Source of the DNA: Deferribacterales bacterium Deferri_01 | GTDB taxonomy: Bacteria; Chrysiogenota; Deferribacteres; Deferribacterales; Geovibrionaceae | Length of the DNA: 64,000 nt | Assembly (NCBI GenBank): GCA_001603805.1 | Contig: LUZY01000002.1 | Location: forward strand, 124,001-188,000 | Direction: 5' to 3' | Part shown: in pieces, positions 9,119 to 52,092 of the stretch | How positions within the stretch are numbered: position 1 is the stretch's first letter | Layout: the number at the start of each line of letters is the position of its first letter | The notes under the pieces: generated by a model | The model's input: only the letters and a program-made list of their open reading frames with translations | The model's database searches: none | Told to the model about the DNA's origin: nothing | Translations under genes and position numbers: made by a program

Positions 9119-9973
9119 TCAGCCGCCGCTGAAAATTTTATATATTGCGGAAAAGTCCTCATCTGCAATTCCTTTGCGGAACATTTCACCGTAAAGCTCT
9201 TTAACAATTGAACCGGTATAAAGAGGCGTATGGAGTTCGTGGGCAAGGGACTGCAAATATCCCATATCTTTAAAAATGCAGGCACCGGAGAACTGAGCGG
9301 AAAACTCGCTGTTTTTAATTTTGTCTTTTTTTGCATCCATAACAAGTGATTTCCCTGCACCCTCTGCAAGAATATCAAGGAGTTCTCCCTTGTCTATTCC
9401 GGCTTTTTCACCCAAAGCAGCAGCTTCGGCTATGGAAGCGCAGAAAACCCCAAGAAGCATATTGTTAATCACCTTTACTTTGGACGCTGCTCCCTCTTTT
9501 TCAAGATAGCATGTTTTTCTGCCTATGGCATCAAGCACCGGACGTGCCTTTTCATAAGCCGCCGCAGAGCCGGAAGCAAGCACCACAAGCTGCCCTTTTG
9601 ATGCAGGCACTGTGCTGCCGAGAACAGGAGCTTCAAGGTACATTCCGCCCATTGACTCCACCTCATCATAAAGCTGGAACACATCACCGAAATGATTGGT
9701 GCTGGTGTCTATTATCAGCTTGCCTTCCATATCCGCAGAGAGAATCCCGTTCTCCATCCAAAGCACATCAAGGACAGCGGAAGTATCAAAAAGATTCAAA
9801 ACGGTTATATCAGCCGCTGATACCACTGCAGCAGGACTAAGCACAATTTCAGCTCCCAGCCCTTCGCATTTCTCAAGGGTTCTGTTCCAGATAACAAGCT
9901 CAAAGCCCTGCTCGATCAGCCTTTTTGCCATTGCTGTACCAAGATTGCCCAGTCCTATAAACCCGATCTTCAT
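9119..9973 (-). CDS. NAD(P)-dependent beta-hydroxyacid dehydrogenase
   Basis: A 284-residue member of the 3-hydroxyisobutyrate dehydrogenase/glyoxylate reductase family. The N-terminal dinucleotide fold is seen as IGFIGLGNLGTAMAKRL, the substrate segment as EAPVLGSTVPASKGQL, and the catalytic lysine region as KVINNMLLG. These enzymes oxidise short hydroxyacids or reduce semialdehydes such as succinic semialdehyde and glyoxylate. The start follows a strong GGAGG. The next genes upstream on the same strand are the YchJ-like gene and hflX, with a 45-base gap. The precise substrate is not evident. Confidence 0.88.
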   Translation of the reverse strand: MKIGFIGLGNLGTAMAKRLIEQGFELVIWNRTLEKCEGLGAEIVLSPAAVVSAADITVLNLFDTSAVLDVLWMENGILSADMEGKLIIDTSTNHFGDVFQLYDEVESMGGMYLEAPVLGSTVPASKGQLVVLASGSAAAYEKARPVLDAIGRKTCYLEKEGAASKVKVINNMLLGVFCASIAEAAALGEKAGIDKGELLDILAEGAGKSLVMDAKKDKIKNSEFSAQFSGACIFKDMGYLQSLAHELHTPLYTGSIVKELYGEMFRKGIADEDFSAIYKIFSGG

Positions 9974-42249: not shown

Positions 42250-43477
42250 CGGCAGCTTTGCCGGCAAGCGCACCTGTACTCCAGCACATCTGAAGATTAT
42301 ATCCGCCCGTGGGAGCATCCAGATTCAGGATTTCCCCTGCGAAATAAAGGTTATCTATTATTTTTGATCTCATGGTTTTAGGGTCAACCTCTTTCAGGTT
42401 CACGCCGCCTGCTGTCACTGTGGCTTTATTGAAATCGTGAAAAGAATCTATAACAGTTTCAAGCTCTTTCAGCATACCCACAAGCACCTTTCTGTGCGCT
42501 TTTGAAACCTTCGCTCCGTGTATTTCACCATCCAGAGCGGAAAGCTTCATCACAACTGCCAGCATCTTAGGGGGCAGAACAGAACCCAGAACGGTCTTCA
42601 TCATCTTTTTATCATTGGCAGCAAAAAGCTTCCCAAGGCGCTTGTCAAGCTCCTCACGGGATTCATCAGGAAACATATCCAGCAGAAGGCGCATTCCATG
42701 TTCCTGCCCTGAAATGCTCCTGCTTATGTTGTAAACGGCGGGTCCGGTCATACCGTCCTTTGTGAAAAGAAGATCACCTCTCTCTTCGGCCGTTTTTTTC
42801 CCTGAATATGCGCTGATGGAAACATCACGCAGGCTTAAGCCTTCAAGATCAGCTATCCAGCGTTCTTTTAACTTCACAGGGGTAAGTACAGGGCGCAGCG
42901 GAGCCAGGGAGTGTCCGCACTTTTCCGCCCACTTATACCCGTCACCTTTTGAACCTGTTGCGGGGTAGCTCAGACCGCCTGTTGCAACTATCACTCTTTT
43001 TGCACGTATTATACTGTTTTCAAGGACTATCCCGGTTATGAGTCCGTCCTTAATCTCAAGGCGTCTGACTTCGGCATCTGTCCATATTTTAACGCCGTTA
43101 AAGCGGACAAAGGTCGTGAGTGCTGCAAGTACCGTTTTTGCGTCATCAGTATCCGGAAAGACTCTGCCCGCATCCTCTGTGACGCACTTTACACCCAGAT
43201 CACCAAAAAACTTCAGTGTATCCGCAGGGGAAAAAGAGCTGAAAGCACTGTAGAGAAAGCGTCCTTCACGCCCGAATACTTCTGCAAGCCGTTTTATATC
43301 AGGTTCATTATTGGTAATATTACAACGTCCGCCTCCGGTTATCAGAAGCTTTCGCCCCAGAGAAGCACCTCTTTCAAGAAGCACTGTTTCAGCGCCTTTT
43401 TCAGCGGCAAAACCAGCCGCAATAAGCCCTGCGGCTCCGCCGCCTATAACGGCTATGTCAAAAATTCTTTCAGTCAT
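42233..43477 (-). CDS. HI0933/BaiN-family flavoprotein
   Basis: A 414-residue FAD-dependent protein. The N-terminal FAD-binding motif is IAVIGGGAAGLIAAGFAAEKGAETVLLE in outline (GGGAAGL loop); GGGRCNITN and the C-terminal GEILNLDAPTGGYNLQMCWSTG region are the signatures of the HI0933/YhiN family. Related enzymes reduce steroid-like or unsaturated compounds; the bacterial housekeeping function is unsettled. The start codon overlaps the stop of the HemN-like gene (ATGA), so the two are translationally coupled. Confidence 0.9.
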   Translation of the reverse strand: MTERIFDIAVIGGGAAGLIAAGFAAEKGAETVLLERGASLGRKLLITGGGRCNITNNEPDIKRLAEVFGREGRFLYSAFSSFSPADTLKFFGDLGVKCVTEDAGRVFPDTDDAKTVLAALTTFVRFNGVKIWTDAEVRRLEIKDGLITGIVLENSIIRAKRVIVATGGLSYPATGSKGDGYKWAEKCGHSLAPLRPVLTPVKLKERWIADLEGLSLRDVSISAYSGKKTAEERGDLLFTKDGMTGPAVYNISRSISGQEHGMRLLLDMFPDESREELDKRLGKLFAANDKKMMKTVLGSVLPPKMLAVVMKLSALDGEIHGAKVSKAHRKVLVGMLKELETVIDSFHDFNKATVTAGGVNLKEVDPKTMRSKIIDNLYFAGEILNLDAPTGGYNLQMCWSTGALAGKAAATDSR

Positions 43478-44700
43478 TCATCTTCCGTACAGCCAAGGCA
43501 GATTCTTTCATCTGATTCTTTAAGATCTGCTCTCATGGATTCCCTTATATAGTCCATACCGTTATAGAACCCTTTCATCATTACGGAAAGAAGAAAACGC
43601 CCCTTGGGTGTAATAACGGCGTGACCGTTCTTTCTGCCTATCACACCCACAGCCCGAAGAGCATTGTATTCAAAAAACGGTTTGTAGGACGGCTCTCCCC
43701 GCAGACCGAACATCTCAACCATCATCCTGTACTGCTTGACGGAGTAAGACCCGAACCTTGTGCTTTTAACCACGGATGCCATACCAGCCGCTACACGGTC
43801 CGCATACTCCTTTAATGAAAATGAGTTAGCGTAAAGAGTACCGTTCAGAAAACTGAATGCACCGGAACCAAGCCCCACATATTCACTGTGGTCAACCACA
43901 TATTCATCTATAAATTCCTTCTGTTTCAATGCAAAAGCCCATGATGTGCGCTGGATGTAAGGTTCGTTCATGTTTTTCAGAATAAGCGAAAAAAGCTTTG
44001 CCTCATTCTCATTGGTTGATTTTCCGATCTGCTCTTTCAGTTTTTTTCCCACAAAAGGAGCATACATCAGCGGATAAAAAGTTGCCTGTTGAGGTCTGAG
44101 CTCACGCACTTTCAGTATATCATCGAGGAGTTCTTCCTCCGTTTGCCCCGGAAAGTTATACATCAGATCCACATTGACGATGGGGAAATGCTTCAATATC
44201 GCCTTAACCTTTTCAAACTGCTCCACACCTGTGCCGAACTTCTTTCTTCTGCCTATATTTTCCAGATATTTATCATTGAAAGTCTGTATACCAACAGAAA
44301 GACGGTCTATGCGCCCTTCTGTGTATCTCAGACTTTCCGGATCTATATGGTTAGGATCGCTCTCGCATGAAACTTCTGTTATGCCGAAAAGCTCCCTCGC
44401 CAGATCTATTGTTTTCGCAAGTTCATCAGGAAGGATAGAGGTTGTGCCTCCGCCGAAATAGACAGAATTAAAGCTGTAGCCCAGCCTTGCTGTCATCCTC
44501 ATTTCATCACGCAGAAGGCTGAAATAACGCCTTGCTGTCTCCTCATGAAATTTGAATCTGTGAAACGAGCAGTATGGACAAAGAGTAAGACAAAAAGGCA
44601 CATGAAGATAAAGAAGATAGTTTTTATTTCTGTCCGCAGGCGGTAGAACTGTTGCGCTTTCGTCAGAAAAACGGAGATAATATCTAACAGCCGCTTTCAT
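43474..44700 (-). CDS. HemN/HemW-like radical SAM protein
   Basis: About 408 residues from the ATG at 44700; the frame is open for a further 54 codons upstream without a convincing ribosome-binding site. The cluster site is PFCLTLCPYC (CX3CX2C) followed by YFGGGTTSILPD, SVGIQTFND and NVDLMYNFPGQTEEEL, the order seen in coproporphyrinogen III dehydrogenase-like proteins. Members act as oxygen-independent coproporphyrinogen oxidases or as haem chaperones (HemW). The divergent N-terminus and C-terminal part leave the role unclear. A haem link would suit the many cytochromes in this window. Confidence 0.82.
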   Translation of the reverse strand: MKAAVRYYLRFSDESATVLPPADRNKNYLLYLHVPFCLTLCPYCSFHRFKFHEETARRYFSLLRDEMRMTARLGYSFNSVYFGGGTTSILPDELAKTIDLARELFGITEVSCESDPNHIDPESLRYTEGRIDRLSVGIQTFNDKYLENIGRRKKFGTGVEQFEKVKAILKHFPIVNVDLMYNFPGQTEEELLDDILKVRELRPQQATFYPLMYAPFVGKKLKEQIGKSTNENEAKLFSLILKNMNEPYIQRTSWAFALKQKEFIDEYVVDHSEYVGLGSGAFSFLNGTLYANSFSLKEYADRVAAGMASVVKSTRFGSYSVKQYRMMVEMFGLRGEPSYKPFFEYNALRAVGVIGRKNGHAVITPKGRFLLSVMMKGFYNGMDYIRESMRADLKESDERICLGCTEDE

Positions 44701-44868
44701 TATAAGCCTTGCGGCTTTTGAGGAAAAGTCCCATCTGATCCCGTTCCGCCCTTCTGTTCCGTTTTCGGACGAGCGTGAGAATGAGCTTTCCCTAGGGAAT
44801 CCCGACAAAATACACCCCCACAAATGAATAGTGCCGTCCGACCAAGACGGCGTCAGTACCATTAACAG

Positions 44869-45642
44869 TTATACATGTTTAAAGAACATTTCGTAAAGAG
44901 TAAGCATTATCTCCACTAAGATTAATATAACAATATACCACTCGACCCTGAGAGAATGAGCATTGTGCTGAAGTCCGAGCTGCTTCTCCGTGGTGTCTGT
45001 CACCAGCTTAAGTTTCCTTTCCAGAGCCTTGCTGCGCTCTATTATCTCGTACTCGTCCTCAAGTTTGAGATAAAGTCTTTCCAGTTCGGGATGCTCCCAG
45101 AGGATTTCGGGCTTCTCATTCACCTCAACACCGCCTACCATTGTGTGCTGAATAAGCAGCGCAGAACCGATAGTGCTGACAAGCTCCCTGTAGGTGCGTG
45201 TTTTGCCCATACCGGACTTAAGGCGCATAGCAAGCGGCTCTATCTGTTGGAAAACCTCGGACATCGCAGCCTCATATCTGCCAAGCATAACGCTTTTTGC
45301 CAGTATATCCGCCATGGTAAGCACATGCTGGCGGGTAAGCTCGGTCACACGTACGTAGTCACCCTCAAACTTATCCTCATTTGAACCAGTCTGGATGAAC
45401 AGGCTTTCAGATTCCACCGAAGGATTGGGCTCATCAATAAACGGCTCAAGTTCAGAGAGAATATCGTTTTTTTCTTTATCACTCAGCCCCACAGTGACAA
45501 CAACGCCAAAACGGAATATAACCACCCACTGATCCTCTCCCAGACGGAAGCTCAACGGAAGATGAGAGGTCCGTTCGCCGATTTCGATTCCTTTTGTGCG
45601 TATTTTTTCGCTGACGGACATTGCCGTCATTATGAGTTGCAT
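44869..45642 (-). CDS. RMD1/YagE-family (DUF155) protein
   Basis: A 257-residue protein of the RMND1/YagE family. The N-terminal beta domain shows WVVIFRFGVVVTVGL, the central helical part KSVMLGRYEAAMSEVFQQIEPLA and ERKLKLVTDTTEKQLGLQHNAHSLRVEWYIVILILVEI, the latter leading into a single C-terminal membrane helix. Eukaryotic relatives act in mitochondria; the bacterial function is not known. The start follows AGGTG. It shares its upstream region with the divergent formate/nitrite channel gene. Confidence 0.83.
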   Translation of the reverse strand: MQLIMTAMSVSEKIRTKGIEIGERTSHLPLSFRLGEDQWVVIFRFGVVVTVGLSDKEKNDILSELEPFIDEPNPSVESESLFIQTGSNEDKFEGDYVRVTELTRQHVLTMADILAKSVMLGRYEAAMSEVFQQIEPLAMRLKSGMGKTRTYRELVSTIGSALLIQHTMVGGVEVNEKPEILWEHPELERLYLKLEDEYEIIERSKALERKLKLVTDTTEKQLGLQHNAHSLRVEWYIVILILVEIMLTLYEMFFKHV

Positions 45643-45767: not shown

Positions 45768-46622
45768 ATGCGGAAATTCCTTACTCCTCCCGAAATTACC
45801 CAGACCATGCTCGAAGCATCCGCATCAAAATGCGCCATGCCCGCTGGAAAAGTGTTTGTACTTGCCCTTCTGGCGGGAGCATACATCGGCTTTGCCGCTC
45901 ATCTGGCAACTATGGTAACAACCGGCAGTTCGGAGTGGATAGGGGTTCAGCGTTTTCTTACGGGAGCTGTTTTCTCATTCGGTCTCATGCTTGCTGTGAT
46001 ACCCGGTTCGGAACTCTGGACAGGCAACACAATGATGATAGCCGGAGTCATGGACAGGCGTATCACCTTCGGCGCCATGATGCGGAACTGGGTTATTGTG
46101 TACATCGGCAATCTGGTCGGCGCTGTCCTTCTTGCTGCGCTGATTGTCAAAGGAACGGGGCTCACTGACGGACAGTTCGGAGCAACGGCAATCAAAATAG
46201 CCTACGCCAAAACCAACGAATCTGTTTACGGAATTCAGCATCAATATGCTTACTTCTTCCGTGGGCTTCTATGCAACTGGCTGGTGTGCCTCGCTATACT
46301 CATAGCCATGAGCGCACAGGATATAGCAGGAAAAATACTGGGAATCTTCTTTCCCATAATGGCATTCGTTGCCAGCGGATTTGAACATTCAGTGGCGAAT
46401 ATGTACTTTATCCCTGCGGGCATATTTGCTTCTGCATTCCCCGCAGCAGTATCTGCCGGCGGGTTTGAACCCGCATCGCTGGCAGCTCTCAACTGGGGCA
46501 CTATGTTCACCGGAAACATCATAGCCGTAACCCTCGGAAACCTTGTGGGCGGCGGAATCCTCACTGCGTGCGCCATGCTTTTCATATACGGCGGGAAAAA
46601 GCAGGAAAACGGCATCAAATAA
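45768..46622 (+). CDS. Formate/nitrite transporter (FocA/NirC family)
   Basis: A 284-residue channel with six membrane helices. Landmarks are GAYIGFAAHLA in helix 1, GSELWTGNTMM in the loop after helix 2 and FEHSVANMYFIPAG, which holds the pore histidine. It conducts formate, nitrite or similar monovalent anions across the inner membrane. The ATG follows AGGTGG. A nitrite role is attractive given the octahaem cytochrome 5 kb away, but the substrate cannot be assigned from sequence. Confidence 0.9.
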   Translation: MRKFLTPPEITQTMLEASASKCAMPAGKVFVLALLAGAYIGFAAHLATMVTTGSSEWIGVQRFLTGAVFSFGLMLAVIPGSELWTGNTMMIAGVMDRRITFGAMMRNWVIVYIGNLVGAVLLAALIVKGTGLTDGQFGATAIKIAYAKTNESVYGIQHQYAYFFRGLLCNWLVCLAILIAMSAQDIAGKILGIFFPIMAFVASGFEHSVANMYFIPAGIFASAFPAAVSAGGFEPASLAALNWGTMFTGNIIAVTLGNLVGGGILTACAMLFIYGGKKQENGIK

Positions 46623-46702: not shown

Positions 46703-47050
46703 TTGTTCCGCACGATTTTTCTTCTCATATTGTCCAATGTTTTCATGACTTACGCATGGTATGGTCATCTTAAGTCTCTCAGAGACAAACCTCTGATAAT
46801 AGCAATACTTGTCTCATGGGGCGTGGCTTTCTTTGAATACTGTCTTCAGGTTCCGGCAAACAGGCACGGCTTCGGCATATTATCCCTGCCTCAACTTAAG
46901 GTTATTCAGGAAATCATTACGATGGGTGTATTTGCTGTTTTTGCCGTGTGGTACATGAATATTCCTGTCACGCGTAATTTTTTCTACGCCTCCATGTGTC
47001 TGGTGGGTGCTGCGTTTTTCATATTCAGAGATGCAGTGGCAATTCCGTGA
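46703..47050 (+). CDS. Small DMT-like membrane protein (DUF486)
   Basis: A 115-residue protein with four membrane helices. The start is TTG at 46703, preceded by GAGGTAGG. The sequence (NVFMTYAWYGHL, VSWGVAFFEYCLQVPANRHG, LKVIQEIITMGVFAVFAVWY) is characteristic of DUF486, a half-size relative of DMT transporters that probably dimerises. Function is unknown. It lies 64 bases before the C39-like peptidase gene and may be the first gene of the amidoligase cluster. Confidence 0.85.
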   Translation: MFRTIFLLILSNVFMTYAWYGHLKSLRDKPLIIAILVSWGVAFFEYCLQVPANRHGFGILSLPQLKVIQEIITMGVFAVFAVWYMNIPVTRNFFYASMCLVGAAFFIFRDAVAIP

Positions 47051-47114
47051 AACCCTAACTTCCGCTTGATAATTTTCCGACATGGGTAAAACATATAATT
47101 ATGGATGAAAGCAT

Positions 47115-47840
47115 ATGAGCGCAAGCATGAACATAAGCATTCTTCCGCAGCCGGATGATACCTCCTGCGGCCCGACCTGTCTTCACGCTGTTTACAGCTA
47201 TTACGGTGAAGAAGTGGAGCTTTCAAAGCTCCGTGAAGAGATAGCCGAACTTGAGACCGGAGGAACCCTCGCCGTTGTTCTCGGTCTGCATGCCCTGAAA
47301 AGGGGATATAAAGTCACGATCTATTCATATAACCTTGTTGTTTTCGATCCAACATGGTTCCGTCTTCCGTCTGAGGGCATAATAAAAAAGCTGAAACAGC
47401 AGATGGAAGTGAAAACTGACCGTAAACTGCGCTATACTTCTAAAAAATATATAGAGTTTCTCACTCTCGGCGGTGAGCTTAAATTCGCAGACCTCTCCCC
47501 TGCACTGCTCCGCAGGTATCTGGACAGGCAGACTCCGGTGATAACGGCACTCAGCGCCACTTATCTTTACCGCAGCCCAAGAGAAATACCGGAAAACACC
47601 GACTATGACGACCTGAAGGGCGAACCCTCCGGACATTTTGTTGTCATAACCGGATATGACAAACCTGCAAAGAAAGTGAGTGTGGCAGACCCCATGCTGC
47701 CCAATCCGTTTATGAAAACAAACCGCTACAGCGTGAGGATGACTCATCTCATCAACTCCATTCTGCTGGGCGTACTGACATACGATGCCAAGCTTCTGGT
47801 TATCGAAAAAAATGAAAAAAATGGTGATGTGCAGAAATGA
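47115..47840 (+). CDS. C39-like cysteine peptidase of the amidoligase cluster
   Basis: A 241-residue papain-fold protein. The N-terminal motif QPDDTSCGPTCL has the oxyanion Gln12 and nucleophile Cys18 of C39-type peptidases; the catalytic His is in SGHFVVITGYD and the Asp in VADPML. There is no transporter domain or signal peptide, so it works in the cytoplasm. In related gene clusters such a peptidase accompanies RLAN-type ATP-grasp and GCS2 ligases and may process or transfer a peptide intermediate. The stop overlaps the ligase start by four bases. Confidence 0.82.
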   Translation: MSASMNISILPQPDDTSCGPTCLHAVYSYYGEEVELSKLREEIAELETGGTLAVVLGLHALKRGYKVTIYSYNLVVFDPTWFRLPSEGIIKKLKQQMEVKTDRKLRYTSKKYIEFLTLGGELKFADLSPALLRRYLDRQTPVITALSATYLYRSPREIPENTDYDDLKGEPSGHFVVITGYDKPAKKVSVADPMLPNPFMKTNRYSVRMTHLINSILLGVLTYDAKLLVIEKNEKNGDVQK

Positions 47841-49294
47841 CAAACCTTATAGTAGTTAACACACCTTCAGAATGGAAGTTTGATACCCCTGATGCGAGGG
47901 TGGTTTCCGCATGGAACTACCTTACCGACCCTGAATTCAACACAATGAAAAAAGCCAAAGTCTTCAACCTTTGCCGCTCCTACCAGTACCAGAGCTACGG
48001 GTACTATGTTTCGCTTCTGGCAGCGGCAAGGGGGCATATGCCTTACCCCAACGTAATGACGATTCAGGACTTCAAATCAAAAGCCTTCGCAAAGCTTATT
48101 TCAGATGAAATAGACGAGCTGATTCAGAAGAGCCTGCACCATCTCACATCAGAGAACTTCACCCTGAGCATATACTTCGGGCGTAACCTCGCCAAAAGAT
48201 ACGATAAGCTCAGTTCACGGCTTTTCGGCATGTTTGTGGCACCTATGGTGCGTGCTGATTTCATCAAGGTGAAGGAAAAGTGGATGATACACTCCATAGC
48301 GCCCATATCCATGAAACAGGTTCCCGAAGAGCATTTCGGTTTTGTGGAGCAGGCAGCCTGCGATTTCTTTGTCCGCACCCCCAGAGCCACACATAAAAAA
48401 AATTACCGTTTCGACCTCGCCATACTCACCAATGCTTCTGAAAAAACCCCGCCGTCTGACGATGTGGCTATTCAGCGTTTTATAAAAGCCGCAGAGAAGG
48501 AAGGAGTAAGCACAGAAATAATCAGCAAGGATGATTATAACAGGATACCTGAGTTTGACGCTCTCTTCATAAGAGAAACCACAAGCGTAAACCACCATAC
48601 CTACCGTTTTTCCCGCAAGGCAGAGACCGAAGGGCTGGTGGTTATAGATGACCCAACCTCAATCCTGAGATGCACAAACAAGGTTTATCTCTCTGAGCTG
48701 ATGCAGAAAAATAAAATACCTACACCCAAAACCACAATTCTGCACAGACATAACATGAACCACGCTAAAAAAGTGCTTCCTTTTCCCATAATTCTCAAAC
48801 AGCCTGACAGTTCATTCTCCCAAGGAGTTGTTAAGGTAAATGATGAAAAGGAATACAAGGAGGCTATGGAAAAACTCCTTGATAAATCAGCCCTTGTTGT
48901 TGCACAGGAGTTTATGCCCACAAGCTTTGACTGGCGAGTGGGAATAATAGGCGGAAAAGCGCTTTATGTCTGCCGCTACTTTATGCACGGAGACCACTGG
49001 CAGATTGTGGAATGTGACGAAAACGGACAGCTTCATAACGGAACCTTTGACACAATGCCTGTTGAGGATGCTCCTGCCGGTGCTGTTGAGCTTGCGCTGA
49101 AAGCAACCAAATGTATAGGCAACTCACTATACGGAGTGGACATAAAACAGGTCGGAAACAAGTTTTACGTAATTGAAGTAAACGACAATCCCAGCATTGA
49201 ATCAGACGTTGAAGACAATGTACTCGGCAAAAAGCTCTATGAAATAATCATAGGCGAATTTGTGAACAGGCTTGTTGCGAGGAAGGTAAAATAA
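47837..49294 (+). CDS. RimK-type ATP-grasp ligase with RLAN N-terminal domain
   Basis: A 485-residue ligase. Residues about 1-190 form the RLAN (RimK-like ATP-grasp N-terminal) domain with CRSYQYQSYGYYVSLLAAARGH. The ATP-grasp domain follows: LRCTNKVYLSELMQKNKIPTP, PIILKQPDSSFSQGV (ATP lysine and glycine-rich loop), DWRVGIIGGKALYVCRY and VIEVNDNPSIES (metal-binding Glu/Asn). Such enzymes form amide bonds between a carboxylate and an amino acid with ATP. Overlap with the peptidase gene and a two-base gap to the GCS2 gene indicate one transcript. Substrates are unknown. Confidence 0.88.
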   Translation: MTNLIVVNTPSEWKFDTPDARVVSAWNYLTDPEFNTMKKAKVFNLCRSYQYQSYGYYVSLLAAARGHMPYPNVMTIQDFKSKAFAKLISDEIDELIQKSLHHLTSENFTLSIYFGRNLAKRYDKLSSRLFGMFVAPMVRADFIKVKEKWMIHSIAPISMKQVPEEHFGFVEQAACDFFVRTPRATHKKNYRFDLAILTNASEKTPPSDDVAIQRFIKAAEKEGVSTEIISKDDYNRIPEFDALFIRETTSVNHHTYRFSRKAETEGLVVIDDPTSILRCTNKVYLSELMQKNKIPTPKTTILHRHNMNHAKKVLPFPIILKQPDSSFSQGVVKVNDEKEYKEAMEKLLDKSALVVAQEFMPTSFDWRVGIIGGKALYVCRYFMHGDHWQIVECDENGQLHNGTFDTMPVEDAPAGAVELALKATKCIGNSLYGVDIKQVGNKFYVIEVNDNPSIESDVEDNVLGKKLYEIIIGEFVNRLVARKVK

Positions 49295-49296
49295 AT

Positions 49297-50508
49297 ATGT
49301 ACGATCTATTTTCCGTCTGCGGAATTGAACTGGAATACATGATTGTATCAAAAAACGGACTGAGCGTACTGCCCGTATGCGATAAGATTCTCGAAGCGGC
49401 TGCGGGTGAAATCACCCAGAGCCTTGAGAGGGGAGCGGTCGGCTGGTCCAATGAGCTTGTACTTCATGTTATAGAGCTTAAAACAAACGGTCCGGCAAAA
49501 GATATCGCCGGGCTGGACAGCCTGTTCGCAGACAGCATAAGAGAGATCAACCGCATTTTAGAGCCCATGGGCGGAATGCTCATGCCTTCTGCCATGCACC
49601 CGTTTATGAATCCGGATACGGATATGCACCTCTGGAACCACGGCGACAGAGAAATATACGAAACCTACAACAGGATATTCAACTGCAAGGGGCACGGCTG
49701 GTCTAACCTCCAAAGCACGCACATCAATCTCCCCTTCTCATCAGACGGGGAATTCGGCAGGCTGCACGCCGCCATCAGGGTTCTTCTGCCTCTGATCCCT
49801 GCCCTTGCAGCAAGCTCACCCTTCAGAGAGGGAAGCCACACAGGCTGGCTTGACACAAGGATAGATACTTACAAAAACAACCAGAAAAAAATCCCTTCCA
49901 TAACCGGACAAGTTATACCTGAACAGTGTTTCTCGTGGGAAGCGTATGAAAAGGGCATTCTTGAGCCCATGTACCGTGACATAGCTCCATATGACCCTGA
50001 ATGTATATTGCAGGAGGAATGGCTTAACTCCAGAGGGGCAATAGCCAGATTTGACCGTAAAGCCATAGAGATACGCCTCATGGACATACAGGAATGCCCC
50101 AGAGCGGATCTTGGTGCTGTTTCGCTGATCACAGAAACCCTGAAAACCCTCGTTAAAGAAGACTGGAGTTCATATGAAGCCCAGAAGGACATGGATCAGT
50201 CCTACCTTGTTGACCTGCTCCGCAAATGCGCCAAAGACGCCCGCAATGTTGATATTGAACATGAAGGGTATCTGAGCCTTTTCGGTATAGAAGAAAAAAC
50301 CACCGCAGCAGAACTCCTCCAGAAACTTGCAGAAAGAATGCCCGAAACATCTAACTATAAGCAGGAGGCGCTTAAGCTCTGCTCCATAGATTCACTGGCG
50401 GAAAGAATAATGTCGCGTACGGGCAGCAGACCGTCACCTGACGTTTTGAAAGAGGTTTACGGTGAACTTGCTGTATGCCTTGCGGAAAACAGGTTCTTTG
50501 AACCGTGA
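49297..50508 (+). CDS. GCS2-type carboxylate-amine ligase
   Basis: A 403-residue glutamate-cysteine ligase family 2 protein. Seen are FSVCGIELEYMIV at the N-terminus (metal-binding Glu residues), SNELVLHVIELKT, STHINLPF, and RFDRKAIEIRLMDIQECP near residue 255. The fold is that of glutamine synthetase-type ligases, which activate a carboxylate as acyl phosphate and join it to an amine; gamma-glutamylcysteine is only one possible product. Here the neighbours point to a peptide-like metabolite. Its stop overlaps the next start (50505-50508). Confidence 0.85.
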   Translation: MYDLFSVCGIELEYMIVSKNGLSVLPVCDKILEAAAGEITQSLERGAVGWSNELVLHVIELKTNGPAKDIAGLDSLFADSIREINRILEPMGGMLMPSAMHPFMNPDTDMHLWNHGDREIYETYNRIFNCKGHGWSNLQSTHINLPFSSDGEFGRLHAAIRVLLPLIPALAASSPFREGSHTGWLDTRIDTYKNNQKKIPSITGQVIPEQCFSWEAYEKGILEPMYRDIAPYDPECILQEEWLNSRGAIARFDRKAIEIRLMDIQECPRADLGAVSLITETLKTLVKEDWSSYEAQKDMDQSYLVDLLRKCAKDARNVDIEHEGYLSLFGIEEKTTAAELLQKLAERMPETSNYKQEALKLCSIDSLAERIMSRTGSRPSPDVLKEVYGELAVCLAENRFFEP

Positions 50509-51176
50509 ACATAGTAATAACCTGCGAACATGCAAGCTTCGCCGTTCCTTATGAATATGTGAATCTGTTTCAAGGTGAGGAGGAAATACTTCTCACACAC
50601 AAAGGATGGGACGAAGGGGCAAAACACTCAGCAGAGGCTTTGGGCAGACTCATGGGCGTTACTCCGATTAACGGCGAGGTGAACCGTCTGCTTGTTGATC
50701 TCAACAGGTCAGAAGGGATCAGCGAGCTGTTCTCCGGGTATATCAAAACTGCTGAGGCAAAGCAGGCGATCCTTAATGAATATTATAAACCGTTCCGAAA
50801 TAAAGTTCTCATTGCCGTAAGCGCCGGAGTGCCAGTGCTTCATATCTCCGTCCACTCGTTCACCCCTGTTCTGGATGGGGAAATGCGTGAGGCGGAAATA
50901 GGCATCCTCTACGACCCTGACCGTGAGTCCGAAAAAACCTGCACCGGCATAATAATCGAATCCCTGAAAAATTTACCCTATAAGGTTATGGAAAACAGCC
51001 CATACGAAGGCAAAACAGACGGAACTGCCGCTTGGCTCCGCAAACTTATGCCCGATGGCAGATACACAGGCTTTGAAATCGAGCTGAATCAGAAACTTCT
51101 GACTGACGGCAGGTTTCCCCAGGAAATAACAGACGCCCTCTACTATGCATTCAAAAAAGCAGCAGAAGCTATTTAG
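50505..51176 (+). CDS. N-formylglutamate amidohydrolase-family protein
   Basis: A 223-residue zinc hydrolase with GTG start at 50505. The family plan is visible: VITCEHAS at the N-terminus (metal ligands near Glu/His), LLTHKGWDEGAKHSAEALG, VNRLLVDLNRS, and LHISVHSFTP in the centre. N-formylglutamate amidohydrolases cleave formyl or similar amides in histidine breakdown, but no hut genes are here, and this branch regularly accompanies RLAN/GCS2 clusters. It probably trims a product or intermediate of the ligases. Confidence 0.85.
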   Translation: MNIVITCEHASFAVPYEYVNLFQGEEEILLTHKGWDEGAKHSAEALGRLMGVTPINGEVNRLLVDLNRSEGISELFSGYIKTAEAKQAILNEYYKPFRNKVLIAVSAGVPVLHISVHSFTPVLDGEMREAEIGILYDPDRESEKTCTGIIIESLKNLPYKVMENSPYEGKTDGTAAWLRKLMPDGRYTGFEIELNQKLLTDGRFPQEITDALYYAFKKAAEAI

Positions 51177-51213
51177 CTGTTGCTTTTTATTTTTTTAGTG
51201 ATAATGTCCGCCG

Positions 51214-52092
51214 ATGAAGTTCAATTACCGTAATCCTCACTTGCTTATGCTCATTTACACTGTCCTCGTATCCGGCTCATTCCATATAGGTCATGTTCTT
51301 GTAAACTATATGGATTCCACTGTCCTTACCTTTGTGCGGTTTCTTATGGGCTCCATTCTCTTCGGAATATATGTTTTCCCCAGATATGAAGTTAAGTTCC
51401 CCTCAATGGGCGCTCTTGCAAGGTATTTTGCCATAAGCGCCAGCATGATATTCTACTTCTGGGCAATGTTTGAAGCACTGCGCTACACCACTCCCCTGAA
51501 TACAGGGATAACTTACACTGTCGTGCCTCTTTTTTCCGCTGTTTACGGTATTTTTCTGTTGAAGGAAAGAGTTTCCGCACGGAACTTTGCCGTTCTTCTC
51601 GCCGCCATGTTCGGTGCTGTCTGGGTAATAATAGACGGTTCACCTGCAAAGCTTATAGAGCTTGATTTTAATAAAGGAGATCTGATCTTCCTCGCTGGGT
51701 GTCTCTGCATAGGTCTTTATTCGCCGCTGTCAAAGCTGCTCCACAAAGGCGAGCCCATGCCTGTTCTCACTCTATGGACCATGATAACCGGTACGGTATG
51801 GCTGCTTCTTATAGCCAATGTGAAAATACTTGAAATAAATTACAACGTTCTTGATGCGGTTTTCTTTTCCGGCATGGCTTATATAACTGTTTTCGCCACC
51901 ATAGCCACATTTTTCATAGTACAGTATTCCAGCAAAAAACTTCCGGTGAGCAAGGTGATGAGCTATGTGTATCTGACGCCTGTGTTTATTATACTTATTC
52001 AGACACTTCTGGGAAAAGGTCTGCCCGATGCGGCAGTTATCCCCGGAATAGCAGCATCACTTGTCGCCACATTCTACTTTCTGCGCTCCTAA
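51214..52092 (+). CDS. EamA/DMT exporter at the end of the amidoligase cluster
   Basis: A 292-residue protein with ten membrane helices and two EamA repeats (the second starts GDLIFLAGCLCIGLYSPLSKLL). It follows the amidohydrolase gene by 37 bases on the same strand. EamA proteins export amino acids and related small molecules, so it is a good candidate exporter for the cluster's product; this is inference from position. Its end overlaps the convergent GGDEF gene by four bases. Confidence 0.87.
   Translation: MKFNYRNPHLLMLIYTVLVSGSFHIGHVLVNYMDSTVLTFVRFLMGSILFGIYVFPRYEVKFPSMGALARYFAISASMIFYFWAMFEALRYTTPLNTGITYTVVPLFSAVYGIFLLKERVSARNFAVLLAAMFGAVWVIIDGSPAKLIELDFNKGDLIFLAGCLCIGLYSPLSKLLHKGEPMPVLTLWTMITGTVWLLLIANVKILEINYNVLDAVFFSGMAYITVFATIATFFIVQYSSKKLPVSKVMSYVYLTPVFIILIQTLLGKGLPDAAVIPGIAASLVATFYFLRS

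Follow-up and report, generated by a model that had tools for sequence, protein, structure and literature searches.

What would two amide-forming ligases of different folds make together when they are encoded in one tight row with a peptidase-like and an amidohydrolase-like enzyme? This question is raised by a locus in the genome of Deferribacterales bacterium Deferri_01, within a window of 64,000 nucleotides (G000:C2:124001-188000). A preliminary description had singled out six co-directional genes in the window, four of them overlapping or lying within 2 bp of each other, and we confirmed all six ORFs, on the plus strand at 46703-52092, together with their families, each Pfam match being well above its gathering score. 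In order, they encode a small DUF486/DMT_6 membrane protein (46703-47050; 143.9 bits); a C39-like papain-fold cysteine enzyme of 241 residues (C39; 47115-47840; Peptidase_C39_2, 51.2 bits, and Peptidase_C39, 36.5 bits); an RLAN-RimK ATP-grasp ligase of 485 residues (47837-49294; RLAN, PF14401, 159.7 bits against a gathering score of 25, and RimK, 47.5 bits); a GCS2-type carboxylate-amine ligase of 403 residues (49297-50508; PF04107, 110 bits against 21); an N-formylglutamate-amidohydrolase-type hydrolase of 223 residues with a GTG start (FGase; 50505-51176; PF05013, 65.7 bits against 28.9); and an EamA/DMT transporter (51214-52092; 91.2 bits). With gene starts assigned mechanically, C39 overlaps RLAN and GCS2 overlaps FGase by 4 bp each, 2 bp separate RLAN from GCS2, and the outer spacings are 64 bp from the end of DUF486 to C39 and 37 bp from the end of FGase to EamA. 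Upstream lie genes for FocA (45768-46622, plus strand), a DUF155 protein (44869-45642, minus strand) and a HemN-like radical SAM protein (43474-44862, minus strand). Promoter and terminator scans gave matches near the shuffled expectation. A role in anti-phage defense was dropped, as none of the four enzymes corresponds to a family in the PADLOC models.

Which of these genes form a unit can be read from their conservation. RLAN is present in six of 60 related genomes. A scan of contigs with the single RLAN protein sequence gave zero matches, and an alignment of six RLAN sequences was used instead; scanned against 84,980 species, it returned 163 relatives, of which the best 80, those most similar to the query, were used and combined with the loci from related genomes into a set of 86. 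All loci were gathered via RLAN, and the survey covers GCS2 and C39 relatives that occur with it; many loci are from metagenome bins, whose taxon names can be wrong. In this set of 86, which includes the best 80 of 163, C39 is found at 79 loci, GCS2 at 80 and FGase at 50. Among the best 80 of 163 themselves, C39 lies at most 300 bp upstream of RLAN in 71 and GCS2 at most 300 bp downstream of it in 67, FGase is present at 41 of the loci that have a full-length GCS2, and the median intergenic gaps are 0, 21 and 12 bp (approximate values, measured at the edges of the matched domains), consistent with translational coupling. FGase has no match at many loci with space for it, indicating that the core can do without it, and at one locus its slot is occupied by a different branch of PF05013. 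The survey thus shows that the conserved unit consists only of C39, RLAN-RimK and GCS2, with FGase added in approximately 60% of loci.

The order C39, RLAN-RimK, GCS2 and, where present, FGase holds in at least 14 phyla, as judged from NCBI names. Its retention in most of the 80 loci from these phyla shows that chance does not explain why the four enzyme genes lie together. Moreover, the distance matrix of each of the four proteins correlates with those of the others (Mantel r 0.53-0.64, compared with a maximum of 0.23 in 499 permutations). Clustering of the neighbors across loci revealed no further conserved gene and no conserved transporter, precursor, carrier or target gene. Within the phylum of the host the distribution of RLAN is patchy, a pattern consistent with either horizontal transfer or loss on several occasions. 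The four enzymes alone are retained at locus L012, from the same family as the host, and at L008, from another class.

Several loci depart from this arrangement. In L012 the GCS2 gene (L012:9221-10430, genome G007) carries two in-frame TAG codons, at 9905 and 10295, whereas the other three enzyme genes of this locus are intact; an early pseudogene, a sequencing error and readthrough are alternative explanations. At L009:7724-9190 (G049) a lone RLAN-RimK gene adjoins a chemoreceptor-hemerythrin gene; this upstream MCP-hemerythrin gene was considered as a possible C39 relative and is not one, and a protein search of the G049 genome for GCS2 found none. RLAN may therefore, judging by G049, act without its usual partners. 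Conversely, G050 has a diverged lone GCS2 (L179:5268-6311), 39% identical to the L008 copy, with none of C39, RLAN and FGase found at its locus. It is flanked by a PreP-like peptidase gene and an apparent lpxC. In G048 the same two neighbors flank a complete cassette, so the lone gene may be what is left of one that has decayed or been repurposed.

The preliminary description had given the cassette its own exporter, with EamA and DUF486 framing the enzymes and EamA exporting the peptide or amino-acid conjugate that they would make. In the window the spacing is short on both sides, and EamA and DUF486 hold the same place at the cassette in all three species of the host genus. However, these three are the only ones of the 86 loci (including the best 80 of 163) at which either gene occurs, FocA likewise being found at three, again all of this genus, and in the two congeners FGase and EamA are split by three genes on the opposite strand, two of them DUF2589 and the third without a Pfam match (L010:11590-12668 and L011:3392-4470; absent from the window). 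Neighbor clustering found no other transporter that recurs beside the cassette. EamA and DUF486 are thus genus-specific bystanders outside the conserved cassette. We have rejected EamA and DUF486 as a dedicated exporter, and the export reading, which we hold to be very improbable, is largely refuted when the cassette is considered across its hosts. The double framing by membrane proteins, then, is real in this genome and is not conserved outside the genus. A gene-neighborhood survey of the six families, which had been proposed as a check, accordingly finds the four enzymes together and the two membrane proteins limited to one genus.

All four enzymes appear equipped for catalysis, with catalytic residues that stay the same from phylum to phylum. 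In C39 the Gln/Cys/His/Asp set is present, with C18, H174 and D192 invariant and Q12 kept in 99% of 75 homologs. The protein begins at the catalytic domain with no leader visible in the sequence. In a pathway for a modified ribosomal peptide (RiPP) this enzyme would remove the leader and the RimK-like ligase would carry out the modification, a proposal that draws on the C39 peptidases of exporters, which cut double-glycine leaders, and on the graspetides, which are products of ATP-grasp enzymes (PMC8939145). However, the window C39 is free-standing, and no ABC transporter is fused to it or encoded next to it, unlike what is expected of bacteriocin-processing C39 peptidases, and the intergenic gaps in the host cassette are too small for a precursor. 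GCS2 and FGase are not known as typical RiPP enzymes either, and we regard RiPP modification as extremely unlikely.

The RLAN-RimK ligase combines an RLAN domain (residues ~1-179; Pfam match 27-172) with an ATP-grasp domain (~190-485; RimK match 281-456). K282, K321, D435, E447 and N449 are invariant in 84 homologs, and alignment with RimK and LysX points to ATP-binding roles for the two lysines and metal-binding roles for the other three residues. An AlphaFold2 model (pLDDT 88) has its best solved matches in ArgX/LysX, RimK and Ddl, over the ATP-grasp part; the first 50 PDB matches are ATP-grasp proteins of fewer than 320 residues, aligned over ~300-330 columns, and include no separate fold match for the RLAN domain. 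By sequence as well as by fold, RimK, LysX and ArgX are the best solved matches, and they share the conserved ATP and metal residues. The window ligase differs from them in its additional N-terminal domain of ~180 residues, in missing the curated RimK cut-offs (TIGR00768, 82.2 vs 143.4 bits; PRK10446, 30.3 vs 331 bits) and in that no LysW, S6 or RimB gene adjoins the cassette. We tried a RimB-like retropepsin as a general RLAN partner by a search for the DTGA motif and rejected it, as it lies beside one cassette locus only; there, in a Desulfuromonas (L090:12349-13196), the cassette is succeeded at a distance of ~1 kb by a Zn_protease/RimB-type retropepsin gene and then a partial RimK-like ORF.

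GCS2 carries the GhExE signature of GCS2-type ligases (PMC2588565) as G9-I10-E11-L12-E13, with 97% of homologs retaining each of G9, E11 and E13, and its model (pLDDT 96) matches YbdK best (1r8g, TM 0.79 on the target), followed by plant GCL and GshA, with PafA/Dop matched weakly. It has the same fold as the YbdK-type and the plant/EgtA-type ligases; in contrast to them, it is ~15% identical in the structural alignment, falls under every curated cut-off (TIGR02050, 46.7 vs 176.4 bits; TIGR02048, 27.1 vs 249 bits; the glutamate-cysteine-ligase models of PRK13517, 26-35 bits against cut-offs of 332-427), is unmatched by the EgtA profile TIGR03444 and lies beside RLAN throughout the RLAN-based survey. 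In FGase, E8, H9, H32, D36, R61, N67, H117, R128, N164, Y167, R179 and E193 are invariant in 47 homologs, and a solved relative is 2odf (profile E 1.5e-38). The HutG equivalog TIGR02017 does not match the window protein and gives weak matches in 15 of 36 relatives (best E 1.4e-08). Because the RimK, YbdK, GCL and EgtA cut-offs are not reached and HutG is unmatched, the four enzymes are, by these profile comparisons, assigned to a distinct set of subfamilies.

A pair of ligases of the GCS2 and ATP-grasp types mirrors GshA and GshB, raising the prospect of a glutathione-like pathway for a low-molecular-weight thiol in which GCS2 would form gamma-glutamylcysteine and RLAN-RimK would stand in for glutathione synthetase. 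The window GCS2 is the sole GCS2 of the host, and the GshB domain PF02955 is absent from the host and its two congeners, in line with such a replacement. (A sub-cut-off PF02955 match in G007 was discarded, looking like carbamoyl-phosphate synthase.) On the other hand, the window GCS2 reaches no equivalog cut-off for glutamate-cysteine ligases or EgtA. Moreover, RLAN occurs in 49 of the 229 gammaproteobacterial genomes drawn, and among the eight of these that have the window's gene arrangement with FGase (G071, G089, G095, G096, G108, G136, G187 and G238) six, all but G095 and G187, also encode a true GshB with a full-strength match. Since GshB is present separately in these cassette-bearing bacteria, the cassette does not simply stand in for the glutathione pathway. 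Ordinary glutathione synthesis is thus unlikely as its function, and the wider thiol reading is, in our estimate, quite improbable. The preliminary description had itself set out two outcomes that would count against it; the membrane proteins did prove not to be conserved, while a product that is plain glutathione is not what the host's lack of GshB and the low GCS2 scores point to.

Taken together, the findings favor a model in which 47115-51176 is a self-contained, horizontally mobile cytoplasmic cassette whose two ATP-dependent ligases assemble a small gamma-glutamyl peptide, which its two hydrolases mature or turn over; we give this model a probability of about 0.55. The functions of the families suggest how it might work. 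GCS2 would use ATP to activate the carboxylate of a side chain, most likely that at the gamma position of glutamate, and would join it to an amine. RLAN-RimK would convert a carboxylate to an acyl phosphate and attach one more amino acid, so that a short peptide or conjugate with a gamma-glutamyl group results. C39 would cleave or transfer an amide of this product and FGase would deacylate an N-acyl-glutamate-like part, the two hydrolases in this way maturing it or turning it over, and the product would probably remain in the cell. In support of this model stand the conserved gene order, the correlated divergence, the invariant catalytic residues, the lack of a conserved transporter or precursor gene among the surveyed loci, and the split of the RLAN tree by partner genes that is described below; against it count the absence of FGase from many loci and the occurrence of RLAN alone, without GCS2, in G049. 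The earlier proposal that two amide ligases, a peptidase and an amidohydrolase constitute one conserved unit is borne out, with catalytic residues intact, and a peptide-like product is still its best reading.

Enzymes of the GCS2 and RimK families can also modify proteins, as do PafA, which acts with Pup, and RimK, which modifies ribosomal protein S6, and this makes a macromolecular target an alternative. RLAN-RimK and GCS2 would then add glutamyl or other residues to a macromolecule as a tag or a modified tail, and C39 and FGase would remove or edit it. Consistent with this, RimK and the carrier-protein ligases ArgX and LysX are among the nearest solved relatives of the RLAN ligase, the GCS2 fold matches PafA/Dop, if at lower rank, no product exporter is conserved, and DUF155, a family with members linked to mitochondrial translation, is encoded near RLAN loci in several lineages. 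We nevertheless consider tagging rather unlikely: no carrier or target gene is conserved nearby, whereas the Pup and LysW systems do have one in their neighborhood, and GCS2 is far closer to the small-molecule ligases YbdK and plant GCL than to PafA. The cassette resembles the Pup ligase and RimK/RimB systems in that an amide ligase of the glutamine synthetase (GS) or ATP-grasp fold is opposed by a hydrolase (PMC2588565, PMC12239564). It differs from them in combining, within a single operon, ligases of two distinct folds, in lacking a tag or target gene, and in having hydrolases of the C39 and FGase types in place of Dop or a retropepsin.

RLAN ligases divide into two types, each with its own partner genes. 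In type A, to which the window belongs, the order is C39-RLAN-GCS2-FGase; in type B, RLAN is paired with a GNAT-C39 (DUF3335) fusion. Type A is exemplified by Rhodopirellula maiorica and by Legionella adelaidensis, which has a RimK family protein, a glutamate-cysteine ligase family protein and an N-formylglutamate amidohydrolase; type B is exemplified by Azospirillum brasilense. Ten gammaproteobacterial RLAN loci are of type A and none of them has a GNAT-C39 gene, in contrast to 29 of the 36 others, at which the fusion lies near RLAN. In a tree of 130 RLAN proteins the types are separated by a single change (SH-aLRT 100). The tree was a quick search. The type labels had been set from the neighbors before it was made, and the match between clade and partner is therefore a real association. 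Type-B pairs from Gammaproteobacteria and Azospirillum share with the window a C39-fold domain beside an RLAN-RimK ligase; they differ in forming a separate RLAN clade and in having GNAT where the window has GCS2 and FGase. This replacement suggests that one core can be supplied with different N-acyl groups, C39 and RLAN being the shared part for ligation and cleavage and each type having its own module for forming the N-acyl group. We speculate, as a tentative extension that we hold to be possible rather than probable, that a large and unrecognized pair of pathways, spread by horizontal transfer, has RLAN ligases at its center. In type A, with its 14 or more phyla, a gamma-glutamyl module of GCS2 and FGase would feed C39 and RLAN-RimK, and in type B a GNAT acetyl module, present as a fusion, would do so; the products would be capped peptides or conjugates inside the cell, of a class that is common but undescribed.

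DUF155 (RMND1/Sif2 family) genes were observed near RLAN loci of both types in approximately five lineages, directly adjoining RLAN in two. Besides the window gene, they lie at L020:15475-16266, L022:12350-13174, L159:9331-10131, L144:4278-5072 and L172:7402-7878. In the 229 gammaproteobacteria, RLAN is present in 16 of 30 genomes with DUF155 and in 33 of 199 without it (Fisher p 3e-5, a test that ignores relatedness). All 12 members of the host family have DUF155, with or without RLAN.

The Pfam RLAN domain probably derives from the work of Iyer et al. 2009 (Mol Biosyst 5:1636), which was likely the first to describe amidoligase neighborhoods with RLAN/RimK, GCS2 and peptidases. Going by citation, ligase and peptidase partners of similar kinds occur there as in the window. 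That work is cited for GNAT-fused DUF3335 papain-like domains (PMC10318531), and the preliminary description is right in placing these neighborhoods among the amidoligase systems recognized by comparative genomics. Full-text searches, with most subscription journals outside their coverage, found no literature on this particular cassette and no product for it; the split into type-A and type-B clades, the spread across phyla and the exclusion of EamA and DUF486 are results of the present analysis.

With the exporter idea removed and plain glutathione made unlikely, the target is narrowed to four genes, and culturable hosts, a Legionella and a Rhodopirellula, have been identified. Finally, we note that a unit of two ligases and two hydrolases whose gene order holds in 14 or more phyla, and which diverges as a block and has fixed catalytic residues, must do something widely useful for the bacteria that carry it.
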